From: Hyphomonadaceae bacterium
GTDB lineage: Bacteria; Pseudomonadota; Alphaproteobacteria; Caulobacterales; Aquidulcibacteraceae
Assembly: GCA_019753175.1 (NCBI GenBank)
Contig: JAIELK010000007.1
Location: 1-64,000 of the forward strand
Direction: 5' to 3'
DNA: 64,000 bases
The notes under the pieces were generated by a model. It had not been told where the DNA came from, made no database searches, and saw only the letters and a list, made by a program, of their open reading frames with translations. This document shows positions 175 to 14,912 of the stretch, in pieces (within the stretch, counting starts at the first letter, position 1; each line of letters begins with the position of its first letter). A program made the position numbers and the translations under genes.

Positions 175-2058
175 ATGCCGCGTCTGCCGCCCGAACCCGT
201 CCTGACTTGGTCCGATGACGGCACGCCGTCGGCAGTGGCCTTTGGCGACGTCTACTATTCTCACACCGGAGGTCTTGCCGAGGCCGAGGCCGTGTTCTTG
301 GCTGGCTGTGGGCTGCCCGGAGGCTGGGCGGGCCGCGACCGCTTCACGGTGTGCGAGGTTGGTTTTGGCACTGGTCTCAATGTCTTGGCGCTTTGGGCCG
401 CCTGGAAAAAGACACGATTAGTCCATGCGCAATTGCATATCTCCACCATCGAGGCATTCCCTCTTGCGGTGAGCGATGCTGCACGTGCGCTGGCCACGTT
501 TCCCGAGATTTCTGAGCTCGCGGCGCAGTTGTTGGCGCGCTGGCCGGTGCGCGCGGCGGCCCCGCAGCGGTTATGGTTCCCTGACGACGGGCTGAGCCTC
601 ACCGTCCACACCGGCGTGGCGGCTAGCGTATTGCCGCAGCTGGAGGGCCGCTTCGACGCGTGGTTCCTCGATGGCTTCGCCCCGGCCAGAAACCCTGAGA
701 TGTGGTCGCCGGACCTGATGTTGGAGATCGCGCGCTTGAGCGCTCCGGGCGCGCGGCTGGCGACCTTCACCGTCGCCGGCGAGGTTCGTCGCGGTCTTGA
801 GGCGGCAGGATTCGCAGTGGAGAAGCGCCCCGGTTTCGGGCGGAAGCGCGAACGCTTGGAGGCGCGCTACGATGGCGGTCCGCCAACGCCTTCAGCGAGG
901 CTCTTCCCTTATGCTGCGCCTCATCCGCGTCGCGTCGCCATTGTTGGCGCGGGCATCGCCGGCGCGGCATGCGCGCAAGCCTTTCTTCGGCGCGGCGTCG
1001 AGACGGTTGTACTCGACGCCGCGCGGGCGCCGGCGTCCGGGGCGAGCGGTAATCCTGCCGGCTTGGTCATGCCCCGGCTCGATCGTGGTGGGACGCTGAA
1101 AAGTTTTTATCTCGCCGCGTATCTCTACGCAGTGGCCGCCTACGAGGCGTTCGGCGTTCTTGACCGGTGCGGCGTCGAACAGCGTAGCGACCCGCGCGGT
1201 GCGGAGGCGTTGGCGGATCTGCTGGCAGACCCGCCATTGCCGCCGGATTGGTTCGCGCCGAGCGAAGCCGGTCACGCGTTGCATCAGCGCGCGGGGCTGG
1301 TTCGCCCGCGCGCTGCGATCGACGCCATGCTGCACGGCGCGCAGCTCATTACGGAAACCGAGATCAGAACGCTCACGCCTTCGAGTGAGGGGTGGATGCT
1401 TGTTGCGCCCGATGGCCGCGGATTGCTGCGCGCCGACGCCGTGATGCTCGCATGCGGCGCGGCGCTCACTGCGTTCGAGCCGGCGCGGTTTCTGCCGATC
1501 GCGCTGTCGCGTGGACAGATCGAGTGGGGCGAGGGGGCCGCGCCCCCGCATGCGGTAACGCGCGGCAATTACCTTGCTGCGTTCGACGGCGGGGTGCTGT
1601 TCGGTGCGACCTTCGACCCACACGCCGACGCAGCAACCGCCGCGCAGCACTTTGAACCGGACGCCGACGCGCGTGCGCGTAATCTGGCAGCGCTTGGCGC
1701 GCTGGCGCCTGACGTCGCCGCCAGCGTAAAGGTCGATTCGTTGCGCTCGCGCGCTGCACTGCGTGCAACGACGCCGGATCGCGCGCCCATTGCAGGACTA
1801 TTGCCCGATGCTGAGCGCTGGTTGGAGCAATACGCCCCATTGGCTCAGGGTCAGCGGCCGCCCTCCGCGCTCGCACCGCCGGCCCACCACGGCATCTACG
1901 TGCTTGGCGGACTTGGCGCGCGCGGACTGACGACGGCGCCCTTGCTCGGCGAGGTCATTGCCGGCGAGATGTGCGGTGAGCCGGAGATGTTTTCGCGCGC
2001 GGTGCGTGACGCACTCCATCCGGCGCGCTTTCTCCTGCGTGCGCTTAAGCGAGGTTAG
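175..2058 (+). CDS. mnmC: MnmC: bifunctional tRNA wobble-uridine modification enzyme
   Basis: The 627-residue protein matches the two-domain MnmC architecture. The N-terminal third is a SAM-dependent methyltransferase (glycine motif GFGTGLN near residue 64 and the family signature LDGFAPARNPEMW near 168). The C-terminal part is an FAD oxidoreductase beginning with the dinucleotide motif VGAGIAGAACA near residue 257. The FAD domain converts cmnm5(s2)U to nm5(s2)U at tRNA position 34 and the methyltransferase makes mnm5(s2)U. Length is normal for the fused form. The gene ends 4 bases into the convergent MFS gene. Confidence 0.93.
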   Translation: MPRLPPEPVLTWSDDGTPSAVAFGDVYYSHTGGLAEAEAVFLAGCGLPGGWAGRDRFTVCEVGFGTGLNVLALWAAWKKTRLVHAQLHISTIEAFPLAVSDAARALATFPEISELAAQLLARWPVRAAAPQRLWFPDDGLSLTVHTGVAASVLPQLEGRFDAWFLDGFAPARNPEMWSPDLMLEIARLSAPGARLATFTVAGEVRRGLEAAGFAVEKRPGFGRKRERLEARYDGGPPTPSARLFPYAAPHPRRVAIVGAGIAGAACAQAFLRRGVETVVLDAARAPASGASGNPAGLVMPRLDRGGTLKSFYLAAYLYAVAAYEAFGVLDRCGVEQRSDPRGAEALADLLADPPLPPDWFAPSEAGHALHQRAGLVRPRAAIDAMLHGAQLITETEIRTLTPSSEGWMLVAPDGRGLLRADAVMLACGAALTAFEPARFLPIALSRGQIEWGEGAAPPHAVTRGNYLAAFDGGVLFGATFDPHADAATAAQHFEPDADARARNLAALGALAPDVAASVKVDSLRSRAALRATTPDRAPIAGLLPDAERWLEQYAPLAQGQRPPSALAPPAHHGIYVLGGLGARGLTTAPLLGEVIAGEMCGEPEMFSRAVRDALHPARFLLRALKRG

Positions 2059-3425
2059 ATATCTTCTCCTGCGCGGCGTCTGGCGATTTCTTCACGCAGC
2101 GCATGCTGACGCTGCTCGTCGAGCGGATAATTCTGCAGCGACCACGCGGTGAGGATGTTGAGCATAGCGGGCGCTCCAGCAAACAGCAACGTCAACGCCA
2201 ACAACGCCTCTGGCGAATTGGCGGCGCCGCGTTCAGCCGAGAAGCCGAACGGCGCGAGTAGGATGAGGCTCGCTGGCCCCAACGCCAATCCGACCTTACC
2301 CGTGGTGAGCAGCAATCCGAAGAACAAGCCAGAGCGCTGCTTACCGGTCCGCAACTCATCTTCATCGACGACATCCGCCATCATGGAGCGCACGAGCAGC
2401 GTGCCGGCCACGGCGGGGAGGCCGGCTATGAACATGCCGATGCCGACGATAAGCGCCGATCCGTGTGGCAACAGCGGCACGCACGCCAGCGCCGCCGCCC
2501 ACCAGATGCAAGAGAGCTGCAGCGCGCGGTGCTTGCCCATGCGTCGCCCCAGCCAAAGCCACAGCGGCACGCCGGCAAGCCCTGCCACGAAATAGACGAG
2601 CAGCAGCGTCGATGCCACGGCGCCCAGGCCGTGAACTTGCACCGCGTAAAACATGAACAGTGTGCCCGCGACACCCTGCGTGGCGCCGAGCAGGAAATCC
2701 GGAATGAGGACGCGTCTCAGAGCATCGTTATCGCGTAACGCCGCGAGCGACTGCGCAAAGCCGTGGCTCTTCCCTTCCTCTTCATGGATGGGCGCTGCGT
2801 TTTCCGGAACCGCCCAAACGGCGATCGCCACCGTGATCGGCAGAGCGACGATGATTGTCCAACCCATAAGGCGTACGCCGTCGTCGAAGCCGCCCAAGCC
2901 TGAAAGCTCCACCAGCGCGGGCAGCATCATCACCACGATTTGGCCTATGGACGACGCCGCTTGAACGGCGCTCAATACGCGGGTGCGCCCATGATACTCC
3001 GGCCTGAGTTCGCCGGCCCAGCCAAGGTGCGCGATCATTGCGCTGGCAAAGCTTGCATAGAGCGAAAGCACGGCGAAGCCGAGCACGATGGCGCTTATCC
3101 CTGGCTGGACCGCGATGAATGCGAACCAAACGGCGAGCATGACAACAGGTGTGGCGCCGACAAGCCAAGCGCGCCGTCGTCCAAAAGCAAGGCGGGTGCG
3201 ATCCTGTAGCGAGCCGATGGTCGGATTGATGAACAGGTCGAATATGCGCGCGGCTAGGAACAGCGCGCCGACCGTTGCAGCTGGGATCGCCAAGTACTCT
3301 GCGTAGTATCGAGGCAGAAAGACAATCGGCGGCACCGAAAGCGCCAACAAGGGCGCTCCGGGCAGTGCGAACGCCAACAGTCGCCAACCTCTCGCGGTGC
3401 GCGCTTCGTCCGTTTCAATTGTCAT
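2055..3425 (-). CDS. MFS / GPH-type sugar:cation symporter
   Basis: A 456-residue polytopic membrane protein. The motif near residues 60-90 (ARIFDLFINPTIGSLQDRT followed by GRRRAW) is the cytoplasmic loop signature of the glycoside-pentoside-hexuronide:cation symporters related to MelB. About twelve hydrophobic segments are visible. The substrate cannot be told from sequence and no sugar-catabolic gene is adjacent. It is convergent with mnmC (4-base overlap) and 78 bases downstream of suhB on the same strand. Confidence 0.85.
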   Translation of the reverse strand: MTIETDEARTARGWRLLAFALPGAPLLALSVPPIVFLPRYYAEYLAIPAATVGALFLAARIFDLFINPTIGSLQDRTRLAFGRRRAWLVGATPVVMLAVWFAFIAVQPGISAIVLGFAVLSLYASFASAMIAHLGWAGELRPEYHGRTRVLSAVQAASSIGQIVVMMLPALVELSGLGGFDDGVRLMGWTIIVALPITVAIAVWAVPENAAPIHEEEGKSHGFAQSLAALRDNDALRRVLIPDFLLGATQGVAGTLFMFYAVQVHGLGAVASTLLLVYFVAGLAGVPLWLWLGRRMGKHRALQLSCIWWAAALACVPLLPHGSALIVGIGMFIAGLPAVAGTLLVRSMMADVVDEDELRTGKQRSGLFFGLLLTTGKVGLALGPASLILLAPFGFSAERGAANSPEALLALTLLFAGAPAMLNILTAWSLQNYPLDEQRQHALREEIARRRAGEDI

Positions 3426-4331: not shown

Positions 4332-5567
4332 TCACGCCGCTTTCGCGCGTTTGGCCATCAGCTTGGCGAAGCGCTCGAACAGGTAATGACTGTCCTGCGG
4401 TCCGGGCGAGGCTTCGGGATGATACTGAACCGAGAACACCGGCTTGCCTTCAAGTTCGATGCCGCAATTGGAGCCGTCGAACAGCGAGACGTGGGTTTCC
4501 TTCACGCCCTTAGGCAGTGTCGCGGCATCGATGGCGAAGCCATGGTTCATCGATACGATCTCGACCTTGCCGGTCTTCTTGTCTTGTACAGGATGGTTGG
4601 CGCCGTGGTGGCCTTGGCTCATCTTCTTGGTCTTGGCGCCGAGCGCCAAGCCGAGCATCTGGTGGCCGAGGCACACCCCCATCACTGGCACGCCGCTTTC
4701 GACCAGCGTCTTGATCTGCGGCGCGGCGTAAACGCCGGTTGCGGCGGGATCACCAGGGCCGTTCGAAAGCAGTACGCCGTCCGGCTTGTGCGACAACACC
4801 TCTTCGGCAGTCGCCGCCGCGGGCACCACGATACACTTGGCGCCGACATCGCCGAGCGCACGCAGAATGTTGCGTTTCACCCCATAATCCATGACCACGA
4901 CGGTGAATTTCGGCTTCTTGATCGCTGGCGCGCCGCCGGGCCAGCGCCAGCGTCCCTCCGACACGGTGTAGGTTTGCGCTGTGGTGACGTCCTTGGCGAG
5001 ATCGAGCCCCTCAAGACCCGACCATGCTTGTGCGCGTCTGATCAACGCGTCGAGGTCGAGCGCACCGTCGGGCGCGTGCGCGATCACGCCGTTCGGCATG
5101 CCGCGTTCGCGAATGCGTCGCGTCAGCGCGCGCGTGTCGATGCCGGCAAGGCCTATGACATTGCGCGCCTTCAGCCACGCGCCGAGCGTGTCGCTTGCGC
5201 GCCAGTTCGACGGCGCCGTCGGACGCGCGCGAAACACTGCGCCCCGGGCTGCACTGGCGGCGGCAGGCGAACTTGCTTCGACGTCTTCGTCATTGGTCCC
5301 GACATTGCCGACGTGTGGGAAGGTGAAGGTGACGATTTGGGCGGCGTAGGAGGGGTCGGTAAGGACTTCCTGATACCCGGTCATTGCCGTGTTGAAGCAG
5401 ACCTCGCCTTCGGCCGCTCCGATGGCCCCCAATCCCTCGCCGAAAAACACGGCGCCGTCCGCGAGAACCAAGGCGCCGGTAGCTGAAATGCGAGTCGAAT
5501 GGGGCAAAGCGCACGTGAGATAGGGGGCGTCGGCCAGGGTGTCAAAATCCACATGAGAGGGCGGCAA
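4332..5567 (-). CDS. carA: Carbamoyl-phosphate synthase small (glutaminase) subunit
   Basis: The 411-residue protein has the CarA N-terminal domain ([14 protein letters not shown]) and a C-terminal class I glutamine amidotransferase domain. The nucleophile is the Cys of GVCLGHQML and the catalytic His is in [10 protein letters not shown]. It hydrolyses glutamine and passes ammonia to CarB for arginine and pyrimidine synthesis; carB is not in the window. The frame opens with TTG at 5567; an in-frame GTG at 5552 is equally possible, so the N-terminus is uncertain. It diverges from the S9-family gene. Confidence 0.93.
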
Positions 5568-5650
5568 TGTCGGCGCCTGCCCCAGACCTGCCGCAAAGCT
5601 GAACTCCTTGGCAGAGCGCGGTTGGCCGAAGGATGACGTTCTTGTAAGGT

Positions 5651-7819
5651 TTGGGTGTGGGGACGCGACGCATCAGTACCTGGGCGGGAGCCAGCGCGGC
5701 TTTGTGCCTCTCGGCCGGCGTTGCCGGCTGCGACCGCGAGGCGAGCCAGGCGCCTGCGCCAACCCAGGCTTTGCCACAGACGATTGCCCGCGCCGTTCTG
5801 TTCGGCGATCCGGCGCGCTCCGCTGGCCAGCTGTCGCCGCGCGGGGACCGTGTGGCCTTTCTGGCGCCGCGCGATGGCGTGCTGAACCTCTGGGTGCTTT
5901 CGGTCGACGCAATGGACCAGGCGCGTCCGCTGACCGATGAGCGCAGCAATGGCGGCGTGCGTCAGTTCCTGTGGGCGCGCGACAACTCCACGCTGGTTTA
6001 CTCCGTCGATGTCGACGGCAACGAGACTTGGCGATTGTTCGCCGTCGATGCCGCGGGCGAGACGCCATCGCGGGCGCTGACGCCGGCTGGGGCGCGCGCC
6101 GAAATCCTCGGCATGAGTGACGAGGAACCGGGAACGATCGTCGTCAGCCTGACCGAACGCGGCCGTGTGTGGCCCGACGTGGTCAAGATCGACTTGGCAA
6201 GCGCGACGCGAACGCTCGTGCTGCGCAACCCCGGCGGATTTACCCGCTTCGCCGTCGACGGCAATAATCAAGTGCGCCTCGGCGTGCGCTCGCGCGACGA
6301 CGGCGGCGCCGAGATCGCTGTGCTATCGCCAAACGGTCGCTGGCGAACCGTCTCCGAGATTCCATTTGAGGACGCGTTGTCTTCTCAACTCATAGCGCTC
6401 GACCCTGACGGCGCGTCGTTCCTGATGTTCGATTCAGCCGGGCGCGATCGCACCGCGCTGGTGCGGGTTGACATCGCCACCGGCGCCAAGACTGTGTTAG
6501 GTGAGAGCGAGCGCGCGGACGTCGTCGATCTGTGGCTCGACCCAACCACAGGCGCTCCAGAAGCTTTCGCGACCGAGTACCTGCGCCGCGAGTGGCGCGC
6601 GCTCGATCCCGAAGCGCAGGCCGACCTTGCCTTTCTTGATGAGCAGCTCGACGCCGACTTCCATGTCGTGTCGCGTAGCGCCGACGATGCGCGCTGGATC
6701 GTCGTGGAAGCGGGGCCGACAACGTCGCCGCGCTCGTACCTTTACGATCGCGTGGACCGTGCGGGGCGGCGCTTCTCGCTGCTGTTCCGTCATCGGCCCG
6801 ATCTTGAGACCGCGCCGCTGCAGCCGATGGCCCCGGTGGAGATCGCCGCGCGCGATGGGCTGACGCTTGTCTCCTACGTGACGTTGCCGATTGGCGCCGA
6901 CGAGAACGGCGATGCGCGGCCGGAGCGTCCTGCGCCATTGGTGATTGCGCCGATGTCAGCGCCCTGGACGCGCAGCTCGTTCGGCTTCGACGCTTTGCAC
7001 CAATGGCTGGCAAACCGCGGCTACGCGGTGATGAGCGTCAACACGCGCGGTTCGAGCGGCTTCGGCAAAGCGTTTCTCAACGCCGGCAATGGCGAGTGGG
7101 GCGGGCGCATGCAGGAGGATCTGCTCGATGCGGCGCAGTGGGCGGTCGCCAGCGGTGTCGCGGAAGCGGATCGCATCGCAATCGTTGGCTCTGGATTCGG
7201 CGGTTATGCCGCGTTGGCGGGCATGACGTTCGCACCCGAGACCTACCGATGCGGCGCAAGCTTTGGCGGCTTCGCCAACCTGTTCACGCGAGTGGATGCC
7301 GCGCCGCCGGCTGAGCGTGCTGCGCTTTATGCCCGCGTCGGCGATCCGCGCAGCGCCGAGGGCCGCCAAGTGCTGCGCGAGCGTTCGCCGCTGTTTAATG
7401 CAGCGCGGATCCGAAACCCGATGCTGTTGGCGATGGGCGGCCGCGACATGCAGGCGTCACGGTCGGAACTCGACCTGATCGCTCAAGCCATTCGCCCTCG
7501 GCGTAACGGCCTGACCTACATGGTCTTTCCGAACGAAGGGCGCAGTCTGCTGTCGATCGAGAATCGGCTCTCGTACTTCGCCGTGCTCGAGCATTTCCTC
7601 GGCGATTGCCTCGGCGGCCGGGTCGAGCCGGTGGGCGCCGCTCTGGAAGGCGCCGAGATCGAAGTGTTCGATGGCGCGGTGAACGTGCCCGGCTTGAGTG
7701 CGTTCGCGCGCCGTCTTCCAGGGCCGCAAGCACCGGAGCCGGCATTGCGAATCTATGCGCCGGGCGAGGGGCCTGACGATGTAGCGCCGCCGGACGAGCC
7801 AATCTCGACGGCGCCGTGA
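5651..7819 (+). CDS. S9 (prolyl oligopeptidase) family lipoprotein, probable pseudoenzyme
   Basis: The 722-residue protein has a type II signal (SAGVAGC, Cys27), an N-terminal beta-propeller region and a C-terminal alpha/beta-hydrolase domain of the S9C type. The nucleophile elbow, usually GxSxGG, reads GSGFGG: Gly515 sits where the catalytic Ser belongs. The acid Asp599 (GGRDMQ) is present, but the His of the usual DEGHGF motif is Arg631 (NEGRSLL). Two of three triad residues are lost while the fold motifs are kept, so peptidase activity is unlikely; a binding or scaffold role is inference. The start is TTG at 5651, or GTG at 5657. Confidence 0.85.
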
Positions 7820-9765: not shown

Positions 9766-10266
9766 TCACGCCAGTCGCAGCAAATCTCCGCAGATCGCCT
9801 CCAGTCCCGCGCGGTCGACGTCATCGAATGCGTCGAACTGGGTCGAGTCCACATCGAGCACGCCGGCGAGCGCACCGGCCGCATCGAACACCGGTACGAC
9901 GATCTCCGAGTTCGAGCGGCTGTCGCAGGCGATGTGGCCGGGAAAAGCGTGCACGTCCGGCACGATGATGGTTTCACGCCTCTCCGCCGCCGCGCCGCAG
10001 ACGCCTTTGCCGAACGGGATGCGCAGGCAGCCAAGCGTGCCTTGGTAGGGGCCAACCACCAATTCGTCCGGCTTGTGCTCGTCCACCAGATAAAACCCGG
10101 TCCAGAAGAATCGCTCCGGGAATGCCTGCGCCAGCAGGCACGTGGCGCTGGCGTAGCGAGCGATGCGGTTCGGCTCGCGGGCGATCACGGCGGCGACTTC
10201 TGTACGCAGCGCCTCATATCGCTCTGCTTTTCCGGGAGGCAGTTCGGTGCGAAGCGCTTCCGCCAT
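9766..10266 (-). CDS. Free methionine-(R)-sulfoxide reductase (GAF domain)
   Basis: The 166-residue GAF-domain protein has the fRMsr signature: Cys in GTLGCLRIPFGKGVCG (two Cys ten residues apart) and a third in HIACDSRSNSEIVVPV. These match the three redox-active cysteines of the YebR/fRMsr family, which reduces free Met-R-sulfoxide with thioredoxin. The ATG at 10266 is preferred over the longer open frame because the upstream part belongs to a small membrane protein whose TGA overlaps this ATG (TGATG), so translation is probably coupled. Confidence 0.88.
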   Translation of the reverse strand: MAEALRTELPPGKAERYEALRTEVAAVIAREPNRIARYASATCLLAQAFPERFFWTGFYLVDEHKPDELVVGPYQGTLGCLRIPFGKGVCGAAAERRETIIVPDVHAFPGHIACDSRSNSEIVVPVFDAAGALAGVLDVDSTQFDAFDDVDRAGLEAICGDLLRLA

Positions 10267-10427
10267 CACATATTCGACTTGCGGTGTTTCAGCGCTCCAG
10301 AGGTCTTCAGCGCCATCATTTCCTCGCGCGACAGCTTGTGCTTGTCGCCGCTCTTCACGGTGCGGCCGACAAGTACCGATACGCCGATAATGGCCACGAT
10401 CAGCACGGCAATGGTGATCCAGAACAT
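10266..10427 (-). CDS. 53-residue single-pass membrane protein upstream of fRMsr
   Basis: A short frame starts at ATG 10427 with a GGAG element about ten bases upstream. The N-terminus MFWITIAVLIVAIIGVSVLV is a clear transmembrane helix, followed by a basic cytoplasmic-type tail (GRTVKSGDKHKLSREEMMAL). Its TGA overlaps the ATG of the methionine sulfoxide reductase by one base. I do not recognise a named family. The hydrophobic/basic layout, ribosome site and coupling make it a credible gene; linkage to the reductase suggests a role in the same envelope or oxidative-stress response (inference). Confidence 0.7.
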   Translation of the reverse strand: MFWITIAVLIVAIIGVSVLVGRTVKSGDKHKLSREEMMALKTSGALKHRKSNM

Positions 10428-10485
10428 GGGCTTCGCTCCAGCTTCCAGAATCCAACATAGGGCGCGGTTACGAGAAACAGAAGCA

Positions 10486-11682: not shown

Positions 11683-13131
11683 TTACAGGGAAAGCGCCGC
11701 CGCCATCGCGGTGTCGCGGCCGGCGGCAATGTCTTCGACGCTGTCGCCAATCGCGATATCTGGCGCGAGCCCAGCGTCCGGCATTGCCGACAGCGGGAAA
11801 CGGCCGATTAGCGGCACATCGCACTCCAGCCCGGATGCGGGCAGCCGGAGAAAGAAGAACGCGCCGCCATTGATGCCGCGCTTATTGCCTCCCGTGGGCT
11901 GTCCGAGCAGACGGCCAAGCCGGTTCTGCTGAATGCTGTTGGCGAACTGGAAAGTGGCGGAAGAATTCTGCGCATCGATGAGGATGACTACATCGCCGCG
12001 AAAGCGCGGTCCCTTCGGCGTGATGACCTCGTCCTCCGCTTCGGCCGACAGACGATAGAAGCCGTCGCCGATCGGCGTCGCCCGTGCGCCCCAGTCGCGA
12101 AATGAATCGTCCCATGTGTCGAGATAGGCGTCGAGTCGCTCCGGCGTGCGTTGGTAGCGGACGCGCCGCTCGTAGCGTTCCCGCGCCATCGGCGCGTCAA
12201 TCAGACGTGCAATGATGGCGTCGCCGCAATCGTTGCCGCCCTCATTGCCGCGGATGTCTACAACAAGCCTGGTCGCTCCGCGGGCGGCAATTTCATTGAA
12301 ACTGGCGTCGAGAAACCCACGCCAGTCCCAGCGTGTGTTGTACATGGCCCAGTTCGGCGTAGTGAGCACTGCAATCTCCGATCGCGGGAACGTCAGCGTC
12401 CAGCCCGCACCCGCATCGCTGAGTTCACCATTGCGCATCTGCGCGCGACGCATCGCGAGATCGATCGCCCCAGCACTGAAGGCGTGAACCTCCGTCGCGC
12501 CGAATGGACGCACGCGTAGGCGAAAGCGCGGCCCGGGCTGGAAAACTAGCCCATAGAAGATGTCGAACGTCTCATAGGAATCGGCGCCACTCACCTCCAG
12601 TAAGGCCCGACGCTTGAAATTGTTGCCGCCGTCAGCGCGCGCGTACGACATGAGGGTGCGCAGTATATGGCGCACGGGCGCGCCGTTGATCGCCATGATT
12701 TCGGCGCCTGGCTCAAGGCGTGCATCGCCGGAAGCGTTGCGCGTCACGATCATGCGCTCGCCCAGCCATGCGAACTGAAAGGGCAGGCGCGGCTGCGCGT
12801 CGAACAGCGCGGCGCGTACTGCTTCGGACTGGTTGTAGAAGTTCGCGTAACTGTGACCGCAACGAATGGCGCCGAGGAAGCGAGACAAGGACAGGTAGGC
12901 CTCCGCCAGCGACTGGTCGCGGCCCCACGCCCGCGTTAGAGTTCGGAAGCGCGCCCTGATTTCCCCCGGCGTGTTGTACCGGTATAGCCCGGGATGCAGG
13001 GTCTCGTAGGTGTCGCGCAAGATTGCGACGTCGCCGGCTAGGTCTGCACCGCGCAGGCTAGTCTGGGCCCACGCCGATGGCGCGAGCGCCAATGCGCCGG
13101 TTGCGGCGGTAAAGGTGCGGCGTGAAAGCAT
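11683..13131 (-). CDS. S41-family (tail-specific) peptidase with Tat signal
   Basis: The ATG at 13131, eight bases after GGGAG, gives 482 residues; the frame opens 23 codons earlier but that part lacks a signal. The N-terminus MLSRRTFTAATGALALAPSAWAQ is a twin-arginine signal peptide. The C-terminal half has the S41 core: LVVDIRGNEGGN, VVILIDAQNSSATFQFAN (Ser nucleophile region) and GQPTGGNKRGINGG. Such proteins are exported serine proteases; the substrate is unknown. It diverges from ettA. Confidence 0.82.
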   Translation of the reverse strand: MLSRRTFTAATGALALAPSAWAQTSLRGADLAGDVAILRDTYETLHPGLYRYNTPGEIRARFRTLTRAWGRDQSLAEAYLSLSRFLGAIRCGHSYANFYNQSEAVRAALFDAQPRLPFQFAWLGERMIVTRNASGDARLEPGAEIMAINGAPVRHILRTLMSYARADGGNNFKRRALLEVSGADSYETFDIFYGLVFQPGPRFRLRVRPFGATEVHAFSAGAIDLAMRRAQMRNGELSDAGAGWTLTFPRSEIAVLTTPNWAMYNTRWDWRGFLDASFNEIAARGATRLVVDIRGNEGGNDCGDAIIARLIDAPMARERYERRVRYQRTPERLDAYLDTWDDSFRDWGARATPIGDGFYRLSAEAEDEVITPKGPRFRGDVVILIDAQNSSATFQFANSIQQNRLGRLLGQPTGGNKRGINGGAFFFLRLPASGLECDVPLIGRFPLSAMPDAGLAPDIAIGDSVEDIAAGRDTAMAAALSL

Positions 13132-13241
13132 GAACCGTCTCCCTTGGCGGGCGTTACGCGCCGGGGGACCGGTTGGATCGCCTCGACGGATGCGGCGCAC
13201 CCCGCTATATCGCGCCGCTCAGCTTTATCCCGAGGGAACCC

Positions 13242-14912
13242 ATGGCGGCTCAACCCGCGCAATACATTTTCACCATGCAGGGCCTGACCAAGGCCTATCC
13301 GGGCGGCAAGAAGGTGTTCGAGAACATCTGGCTGTCGTTTTTCCCGGACGCCAAGATCGGCGTCGTCGGCGTCAACGGCTCGGGCAAGTCGACGCTGATG
13401 AAGATCATGGCCGGGCTCGACAAGGATTTCACCGGTGAAGCCAAGGCCATGGCCAACACCAAGATGGGCTATCTCGAACAGGAGCCGCACATCGATATGA
13501 GCCTCTCGGTGCGCGAGAACGTCGAGGCGTGGTGCGTGGAAAAGCAGCTGGTCGCGCGCTTCAACGACGTCAGCATGAAGATCGGCGAGGATTATTCCGA
13601 CGACCTCATGGAAGAGATGACGGCGCTGCAGGAGAAGATCGACGCCGCCGAAGCCTGGGACATCGACTCTAAGATCGAGATGGCGATGGACGCGCTGCGC
13701 TGCCCGCCCGACGATGCGGACGTGACCAAGCTCTCCGGCGGTGAGCGCCGGCGCGTTGCGCTGTGCCGCTTGCTCTTGTCAAAGCCCGACATGCTGCTCT
13801 TGGACGAGCCCACCAACCATCTCGACGCCGAAAGCGTCGCCTGGCTGCAGCATCACCTCGAGAATTTTCCCGGCTGCGTAATCCTGGTCACCCACGACCG
13901 CTATTTCCTCGATCAGGTGACGAAGTGGACGCTCGAACTCGATCGCGGCAAGGGCATTCCGTACGAAGGCAATTACAGCGCCTGGCTGGAAGCCAAAGCC
14001 AAGCGCATGGCGCAGGAGGAGCGCGAAGCCGAAGGCAAACAGAAGGTGATGAGCCGCGAACTCGAATGGGTGCGCCAATCTCCCAAAGCGCGGCAAGCCA
14101 AGAGCAAAGCGCGCATGCAGCGCTACGAGGAAATGGCCGCCGAGGCCGAACGCGCCAAGCAGACTTTCGCCACCATACAAATTCCGCCCGGGCCCAGGCT
14201 CGGCCACAACGTCATCAATTTCGACGGCCTGAAGAAAGGTTTCGGCGACAAGCTGCTGATCGATGGTCTCACTTTCAAGCTGCCGCCCGGCGGCATTGTC
14301 GGCATCATCGGTCCCAACGGCGCGGGTAAATCGACGTTGTTTCGCATGATCACCGGGCATGAGAAGCCGGACGCGGGCAAGATCGAGATCGGGGAAAGCG
14401 TGAAGCTCGGCTTCGTCGATCAGTCGCGCGACAGCCTCGACGACAAGAAGAACATCTGGGAAGAAATTTCCGGCGGGCTCGACATGATCCAGGTCGGCGG
14501 CCGCGAAGTGCCGAGCCGCGCTTATGTGTCGAGCTTCAATTTCAAGGGCGCTGATCAGCAGAAGAAAGTGGGACAACTCTCCGGCGGCGAACGCAATCGC
14601 GTGCATCTGGCCAAGACGCTTTTGACTGGCGCCAACGTGCTGCTGCTCGACGAACCCACCAACGATCTCGACGTCGAAACGCTGCAGTCGCTGGAAGCCG
14701 CGCTCGAAGATTTCGCCGGCTGCGCCGTGGTGATCAGCCACGATCGCTGGTTCCTGAACCGGCTAGCCACGCACATCCTGGCGTTCGAAGGCGATTCACA
14801 CGTGGAATGGTTCGAAGGCGATTTCGACTCGTATGAAGCCGACAAGATGCGCCGCCTGGGCGTGAGCGAGATTATTCCGAGCCGGATCAAGTTCCAGAAG
14901 TTTGGGCGGTAG
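13242..14912 (+). CDS. ettA: EttA: energy-dependent translational throttle, ABC-F ATPase
   Basis: The ATG at 13242 gives 556 residues, matching EttA (about 555). Two ABC domains are present: Walker A GVNGSGKST (near 45) and GPNGAGKST (near 360), signatures LSGGERRRV and LSGGERNRV, and Walker B LLLDEPTNHLD and LLLDEPTNDLD. A charged linker with KARQAKSKARMQRYEE lies between them, as in ABC-F factors. EttA binds the ribosomal E site and gates the first elongation step by ATP/ADP ratio. It acts in the cytosol and has no membrane domain. Confidence 0.95.
   Translation: MAAQPAQYIFTMQGLTKAYPGGKKVFENIWLSFFPDAKIGVVGVNGSGKSTLMKIMAGLDKDFTGEAKAMANTKMGYLEQEPHIDMSLSVRENVEAWCVEKQLVARFNDVSMKIGEDYSDDLMEEMTALQEKIDAAEAWDIDSKIEMAMDALRCPPDDADVTKLSGGERRRVALCRLLLSKPDMLLLDEPTNHLDAESVAWLQHHLENFPGCVILVTHDRYFLDQVTKWTLELDRGKGIPYEGNYSAWLEAKAKRMAQEEREAEGKQKVMSRELEWVRQSPKARQAKSKARMQRYEEMAAEAERAKQTFATIQIPPGPRLGHNVINFDGLKKGFGDKLLIDGLTFKLPPGGIVGIIGPNGAGKSTLFRMITGHEKPDAGKIEIGESVKLGFVDQSRDSLDDKKNIWEEISGGLDMIQVGGREVPSRAYVSSFNFKGADQQKKVGQLSGGERNRVHLAKTLLTGANVLLLDEPTNDLDVETLQSLEAALEDFAGCAVVISHDRWFLNRLATHILAFEGDSHVEWFEGDFDSYEADKMRRLGVSEIIPSRIKFQKFGR

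Follow-up and report, generated by a model that had tools for sequence, protein, structure and literature searches.

We found that the 64,000-nucleotide stretch analysed here (the window; Hyphomonadaceae bacterium, contig JAIELK010000007.1) carries an S9-family gene whose product is probably a lipid-anchored, S9C-like pseudopeptidase, inactivated in place and most likely working by binding (a probability of roughly 0.6 in our judgement). Comparison with relatives shows export and lipidation signals, an S9 fold, loss of the nucleophile, base and oxyanion loop, selective maintenance and an origin in place. New here are the fixation across the genus, the in-place origin beside carA, the finding that relatives lost different sets of residues, and a shift of relative constraint within the protein.

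The gene product and its catalytic positions

The reading frame given in the initial annotation (5651-7819, forward strand) is open throughout and translates into a 722-residue S9 protein; residue numbers below are counted from its TTG at 5651. The frame stood, but its start probably lies elsewhere. TTG 5651 directly abuts the 3' end of a conserved -10-like box, so GTG 5657 and a leaderless message are likelier. The longer motif GTAAGGT lies 5-7 bases upstream of a GTG in 24 of the 25 genus orthologues examined, with a TTGGCC-like hexamer farther upstream. GTG 5657 is thus probably the better start, and a leaderless transcript is probable from this conserved sequence. Another conserved block was seen upstream of the promoter-like sequence, AAAGGTGAAC..TGTCAGCCAT in relatives, and may belong to carA. 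The gene had been described as full length with normal codon use, in agreement with the 711-754 residues of full-length family relatives and with a GC3 of 0.78, inside the range of nine neighbouring genes (0.68-0.83).

Table 1. Features of the S9 gene and its locus (window coordinates)
Feature	Position	Strand	Basis or remark
S9-family pseudopeptidase lipoprotein	5657..7819	+	GTG start at 5657 probable; TTG at 5651 in the initial annotation
Promoter-like TTGGCC (5622-5627) and TAAGGT (5645-5650)	5622..5650	+	Spacer 17; 6 bases before the GTG
Predicted lipoprotein signal peptide, lipobox VAGC, Cys27	5657..5731	+	Lipobox scan; Cys27 invariance
Beta-propeller, residues 45-390	5783..6820	+	Model and PDB matches; exact edge set by us
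Alpha/beta-hydrolase domain, residues 391-660	6821..7630	+	PF00326 and model; exact edge set by us
Eroded oxyanion-loop motif MSAP, residues 435-438	6953..6964	+	HGGP in active relatives
Nucleophile elbow GSGFGG, residues 513-518, Gly515 instead of Ser	7187..7204	+	Translation; orthologue comparison
Asp599 retained, in GGRDMQ	7445..7447	+	Translation; Asp in 26/29 genus orthologues
Arg631 instead of catalytic His, in NEGRSLL	7541..7543	+	Translation; orthologue comparison
carA, divergent neighbour marking the orthologous locus	4332..5567	-	
GAF-domain protein, second synteny marker	9766..10458	-	

By descent the protein belongs to peptidase family S9: Pfam detected Peptidase_S9 (PF00326) at residues 446-656 with 106.4 bits (cut-off 22.6), and this hydrolase is joined to a propeller. 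An AlphaFold2 model built from 43 alignment rows had a mean pLDDT of 89.1 and a pTM of 0.87. It was matched by S9 enzymes over nearly its whole length in both Foldseek (5l8s, E 8.1e-36) and VIA-align (best PDB match 7c72, Z 34.5, rmsd 3.7, 579 residues). The S9C acylaminoacyl peptidases and puromycin hydrolases 5l8s, 7c72 and 3azo, which carry the same Pfam domain, aligned along the whole fold with Z 32.5-34.5 over 579-588 residues; the window protein is S9C-like. The initial annotation had called the fold motifs intact, and an intact fold was borne out by the model (pLDDT 89) and by S9 enzymes matching at Z up to 34.5. A narrower assignment as an Atxe2-type lasso peptide isopeptidase (NCBIfam NF033523) was rejected at 62.1 bits against a curated cut-off of 400. 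The predicted signal peptide and lipobox VAGC mark the protein as a putative bacterial lipoprotein; the lipobox cysteine is invariant in 26/26 full-length genus orthologues.

The initial annotation had placed Gly515, Asp599 and Arg631 at the triad positions, and both the translation and alignment to a known structure upheld this. In a phmmer search against PDB chains, Gly515 lined up with the Ser of GGSYGG, and Arg631 with the His of EGH, in the acylaminoacyl peptidase 5l8s. Since elbow and His loop both align to active S9 enzymes, the replaced positions are read correctly. The initial count of two replaced catalytic residues holds for Ser and His but is incomplete, as the HGGP oxyanion loop is changed too. 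Among the features of active S9 enzymes, the Ser nucleophile, the catalytic His and the HGGP loop are therefore missing and only the Asp is present; unlike the S9C enzymes, the window protein combines these replacements with a lipobox. Elsewhere in the genus the loop mostly reads HDGP, its second residue being Asp in 21 of 26 full-length orthologues, and P438, W439 and R441, right behind it, are invariant. A search for relocated catalytic residues came up empty: none of the residues that became fixed in the hydrolase domain across the genus is a Ser, Cys, Thr or His. The newly fixed positions are Arg, Val, Gly, Phe and similar residues, the only exceptions being Ser84 and Thr114 (96%), both in the propeller.

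Retention and constraint across the genus

Orthologues were found in 29 of 30 genus genomes, with 59-69% identity outside the window's own genome, so the S9 pseudopeptidase is no quirk of a single genome. All 20 genomes with a completeness of 90% or more and a contamination of 5% or less carry the gene, and the sole genome without it (G028) is 57% complete. We looked for orthologues sharing the Gly/Arg pair. Gly515 is universal (29/29), encoded by GGA, GGC, GGG and GGT; Arg631 is found in 19, its place being taken by Ala in eight and Gly in two, and His occurs in none. Position 599 is Asp in 26, Glu in two and Tyr in one. In intact relatives Ser at position 515 is mostly encoded by TCN codons. 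The use of four glycine codons against this background means that Gly is held by selection and that a single step from TCN did not produce it.

Three of the 29 copies are interrupted, one by a run of N at an assembly gap (G001) and two by frame breaks (G014 and G023). The break in G023 coincides with a stretch of six G, and G014 has a short carA frame as well (365 codons), which suggests read errors behind both. That the gene is a maintained pseudoenzyme and not a decaying one, as first proposed from the window, now has the support of genus-wide retention, Gly515 in four codons, low dN/dS, an invariant Cys27 and a conserved promoter-like sequence.

In three close genus pairs dN/dS was 0.035, 0.088 and 0.071, against 0.031 to 0.367 in pairs of active enzymes; dS was about 0.4-1.2 even in close pairs, so the absolute ratios are rough. 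Within residues 506-640 the close pairs gave 0.02-0.06, and the pocket segment showed no relaxation in the closest of them. These values indicate strong purifying selection on the gene. Measured against carA, the gene diverges much as it does in active relatives: the median ratio was 2.39 over 231 pairs from the genus and 2.07 over 10 active pairs.

Relative constraint within the protein has moved from the hydrolase towards the propeller. Dividing hydrolase by propeller divergence gave 0.48 over 136 pairs of active enzymes, 0.89 over 300 pairs within the genus and 1.65 over 36 pairs from a distant genus, g11, the pairs being non-independent. The 19 active sequences share 130 conserved positions, 97 of which lie in the hydrolase domain; the genus departs from them at 19, and 18 of these 19 fall in the hydrolase. 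Part of this enrichment is expected because most conserved positions are there. The catalytic loops are enriched in changes (8 of 23 conserved positions, P 0.006). Residues 391-505, the N-terminal half of the hydrolase, retain more identity within the genus than the propeller does (0.77 vs 0.64), so the propeller cannot by itself be credited with the function. Residues 641-688 (window 7571-7714) reach an identity of 0.75 in the genus vs 0.54 in active enzymes and contain the genus-fixed F685 and R687; this C-terminal stretch is a possible interface. Newly fixed Arg residues were seen at 74, 272, 316, 576, 615 and 687. The gain of a basic patch was considered and rejected: net charge over residues 45-690 is -12.5 vs -11.7 in active family relatives, Lys being largely swapped for Arg.

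The carA locus and losses in relatives

In 24 of the 29 genus genomes the S9 gene and carA are divergent neighbours; the remaining five copies reach a contig edge. Five genomes from sister genera within the family (L029, L054, L055, L062/L052 and L063/L053) have, likewise divergent from carA, an S9 lipoprotein gene at the orthologous position (46-50% identity). Unlike the window protein, its product keeps an intact S-D-H triad with HGGP, and these proteins are called active from their sequence. Two more intact copies (L058 and L060) lie at contig ends. In genus g20, all three copies found beside carA are damaged, two reading W-D-H (L056 and L057) and one S-D-A (L061). The Trp of L056 and L057 replaces the Ser nucleophile in GQWFGG, Asp and His being kept. 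A fourth g20 genome (G072) gave no match, and the orthologue is absent from, or too diverged to detect in, several more genera of the family. As the carA-adjacent orthologues of sister genera are either intact or differently damaged, the loss occurred in place, and the pseudopeptidase arose without duplication. The loss in place at an orthologous locus, together with its recurrence in relatives, takes the pseudoenzyme call beyond what could be seen in the window alone. The window's own genome also encodes S9 paralogues of the active S-D-H type, 28-30% identical to the window protein; a paralogue at 39-42% identity occurs in only 2 of 30 genus genomes. The surroundings further include a Peptidase_S41 family protein (11683-13200, reverse strand) and the GAF-domain protein of Table 1, which presumably resembles a free methionine-R-sulfoxide reductase.

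A search of the wider order covered 398 genomes, of which 66 gave a match at E 1e-57 or better; 33 of the 66 fall outside the family, and all 33 were retrieved. S-D-H is intact in 11/11 sequences of family f2, 4/4 of f3 and 5/5 of f5, and in 3/13 of f4, one of these three being in pieces. The triad is lost in 9/9 sequences of f4 genus g11 and in one g53 fragment, which has Arg at 515. The g11 gene adjoins EttA in 9/9 cases and has a GAF gene nearby in 4/9 at the threshold used; in the window, the GAF gene and EttA (13173-14912) both lie downstream of the S9 gene. The proximity of both genes to GAF and EttA hints at a shared ancestral position. Pfam still detected Peptidase_S9 in 5/5 g11 proteins scanned. 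The g11 proteins (L095-L101, L103, L104) are far more degenerate S9 lipoproteins, fixed next to EttA and varied in their catalytic residues, and their hydrolase domain diverges faster than the propeller. One of them, L100, has Ser at 515 and neither Asp nor His, the alignment of the catalytic loops in g11 being uncertain owing to divergence.

A careful tree of 30 rows, a further choice from 66 rows, was computed with the catalytic columns removed. The genus formed one clade (100/100) and g20 a separate branch (82/97), with the intact L029 and L055 beside both. A single clade of the genus and g20 was not rejected by the AU test (p 0.21); how many losses were independent is therefore judged from the identity of the missing residues (G-D-R/A/G, W-D-H and S-D-A complement one another) and from parsimony counts. 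In g20, two genomes lost Ser while keeping His and one did the reverse; unless a residue was regained, these were separate losses. By parsimony Ser and His each changed at least twice on the 30-row tree, and any loss occurred at least three times on a quick 65-row tree, in which several long branches meet and g11 is placed with little certainty. Nine fragments (of L031, L042, L043 and L092) were left out of the trees before anything was counted, as were 11 full-length rows that lay close to other rows. A contig-edge fragment from another family genome (G030, L059:4714-5394) reads GEGFGG, with a Gly nucleophile, and DEGHAL, with the His kept; this G-D-H case was not counted as an independent loss.

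Possible roles and parallels

In the reading we prefer, the genus ancestor encoded an active, lipidated S9 peptidase beside carA. The comparison shows that in this enzyme the nucleophile Ser gave way to Gly, and the His to Arg, Ala or Gly, in place and without duplication, the fold, export, lipidation signal and promoter-like sequence being retained through the loss of catalysis. Most likely the protein now works by binding: a peptide, or a partner protein of the envelope, would be held by the propeller together with the altered interdomain cavity, and the conserved C-terminal stretch perhaps joins in.

S9 folds enclose a cavity between propeller and hydrolase. With its lipidation signal and the invariant residues behind the former oxyanion loop, the protein could use this cavity as a periplasmic or surface lipoprotein that captures peptides or small molecules and passes them to a transporter, with no stable protein partner. 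We consider this rather unlikely: no peptide transporter lies beside the gene among the neighbours examined, and an MFS gene (2055-3425) is three genes away. S9 enzymes are often oligomeric and active paralogues exist in the same genome, so a regulatory subunit that tunes the activity or location of such a paralogue in mixed oligomers was also weighed. It is unlikely given the low identity of the own-genome paralogues, the rarity of the closer one, and a gene that changed in place and not as the duplicate of a surviving partner.

Hydrolysis or transfer by a mechanism without Ser515 and His631 would account for the purifying selection on fold and pocket segment and for Asp599 in most orthologues. 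This is quite improbable, since the hydrolase domain has gained no fixed candidate residue, the oxyanion loop is eroded to a mostly Asp-bearing form, and Asp599 itself is Glu or Tyr in 3/29. Slow decay, with the gene losing its function and persisting by chance, might be read from the two broken frames and from the patchy detection in other family genera. It is very improbable in view of the low dN/dS, the fixation of Gly515 over four codons, the conserved promoter-like sequence and lipobox, the presence in every near-complete genome and breaks that look like read errors. Binding by an inactivated S9 fold remains the explanation that we favour.

The best-known S9 pseudopeptidases are those of animals, in which DPP6 and DPP10 have become subunits of ion channels. 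The literature that we searched, with most subscription journals outside its scope, yielded no bacterial S9 pseudopeptidase, which does not prove their absence, and a search on the genus found nothing on this S9 gene. In the excerpts of PMC4350108 and PMC4873792 available, DPP6 (DPPX) and DPP10 (DPPY) are membrane-anchored proteins that, like the window protein, keep the fold with the catalytic Ser replaced (by Asp and Gly); DPP10 has Gly at the nucleophile (GKGYGG) and binds Kv4. The same excerpts describe fly DPP10 as both channel subunit and peptidase, an orthologue with activity, to which the predicted active orthologues of the window protein would correspond. DPP10 offers the nearest parallel to the binding role proposed here. 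DPP6 and DPP10 differ in being animal proteins of subfamily S9B, with a partner, Kv4 channels, known only there, and DPP10 keeps His and Asp whereas the window protein has lost the His too. A bacterial peptidase family including a class without catalytic residues is reported in an excerpt on pseudo-orthocaspases (PMC6426788), which have an unrelated caspase-like fold.

Annotating this gene as an 'S9 family peptidase' misleads across the whole genus. That related lineages lost different sets of residues suggests that a non-catalytic role was already present in the active ancestors. A wider proposal, which we put forward tentatively and at somewhat less than even odds, is that the lipidated S9 proteins of this lineage are binders or scaffolds first and peptidases second, with a dispensable triad lost at least three times (in this genus, in the sister genus with Trp or Ala changes and in the distant genus beside EttA) while the shell was kept. 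Intact and inactivated bacterial orthologues at one locus within one family could be used to test whether the non-catalytic role preceded the loss of catalysis. If the proposal is true, these proteins would be a bacterial counterpart of DPP6 and DPP10 that can be compared with intact orthologues occupying the same place in the genome.
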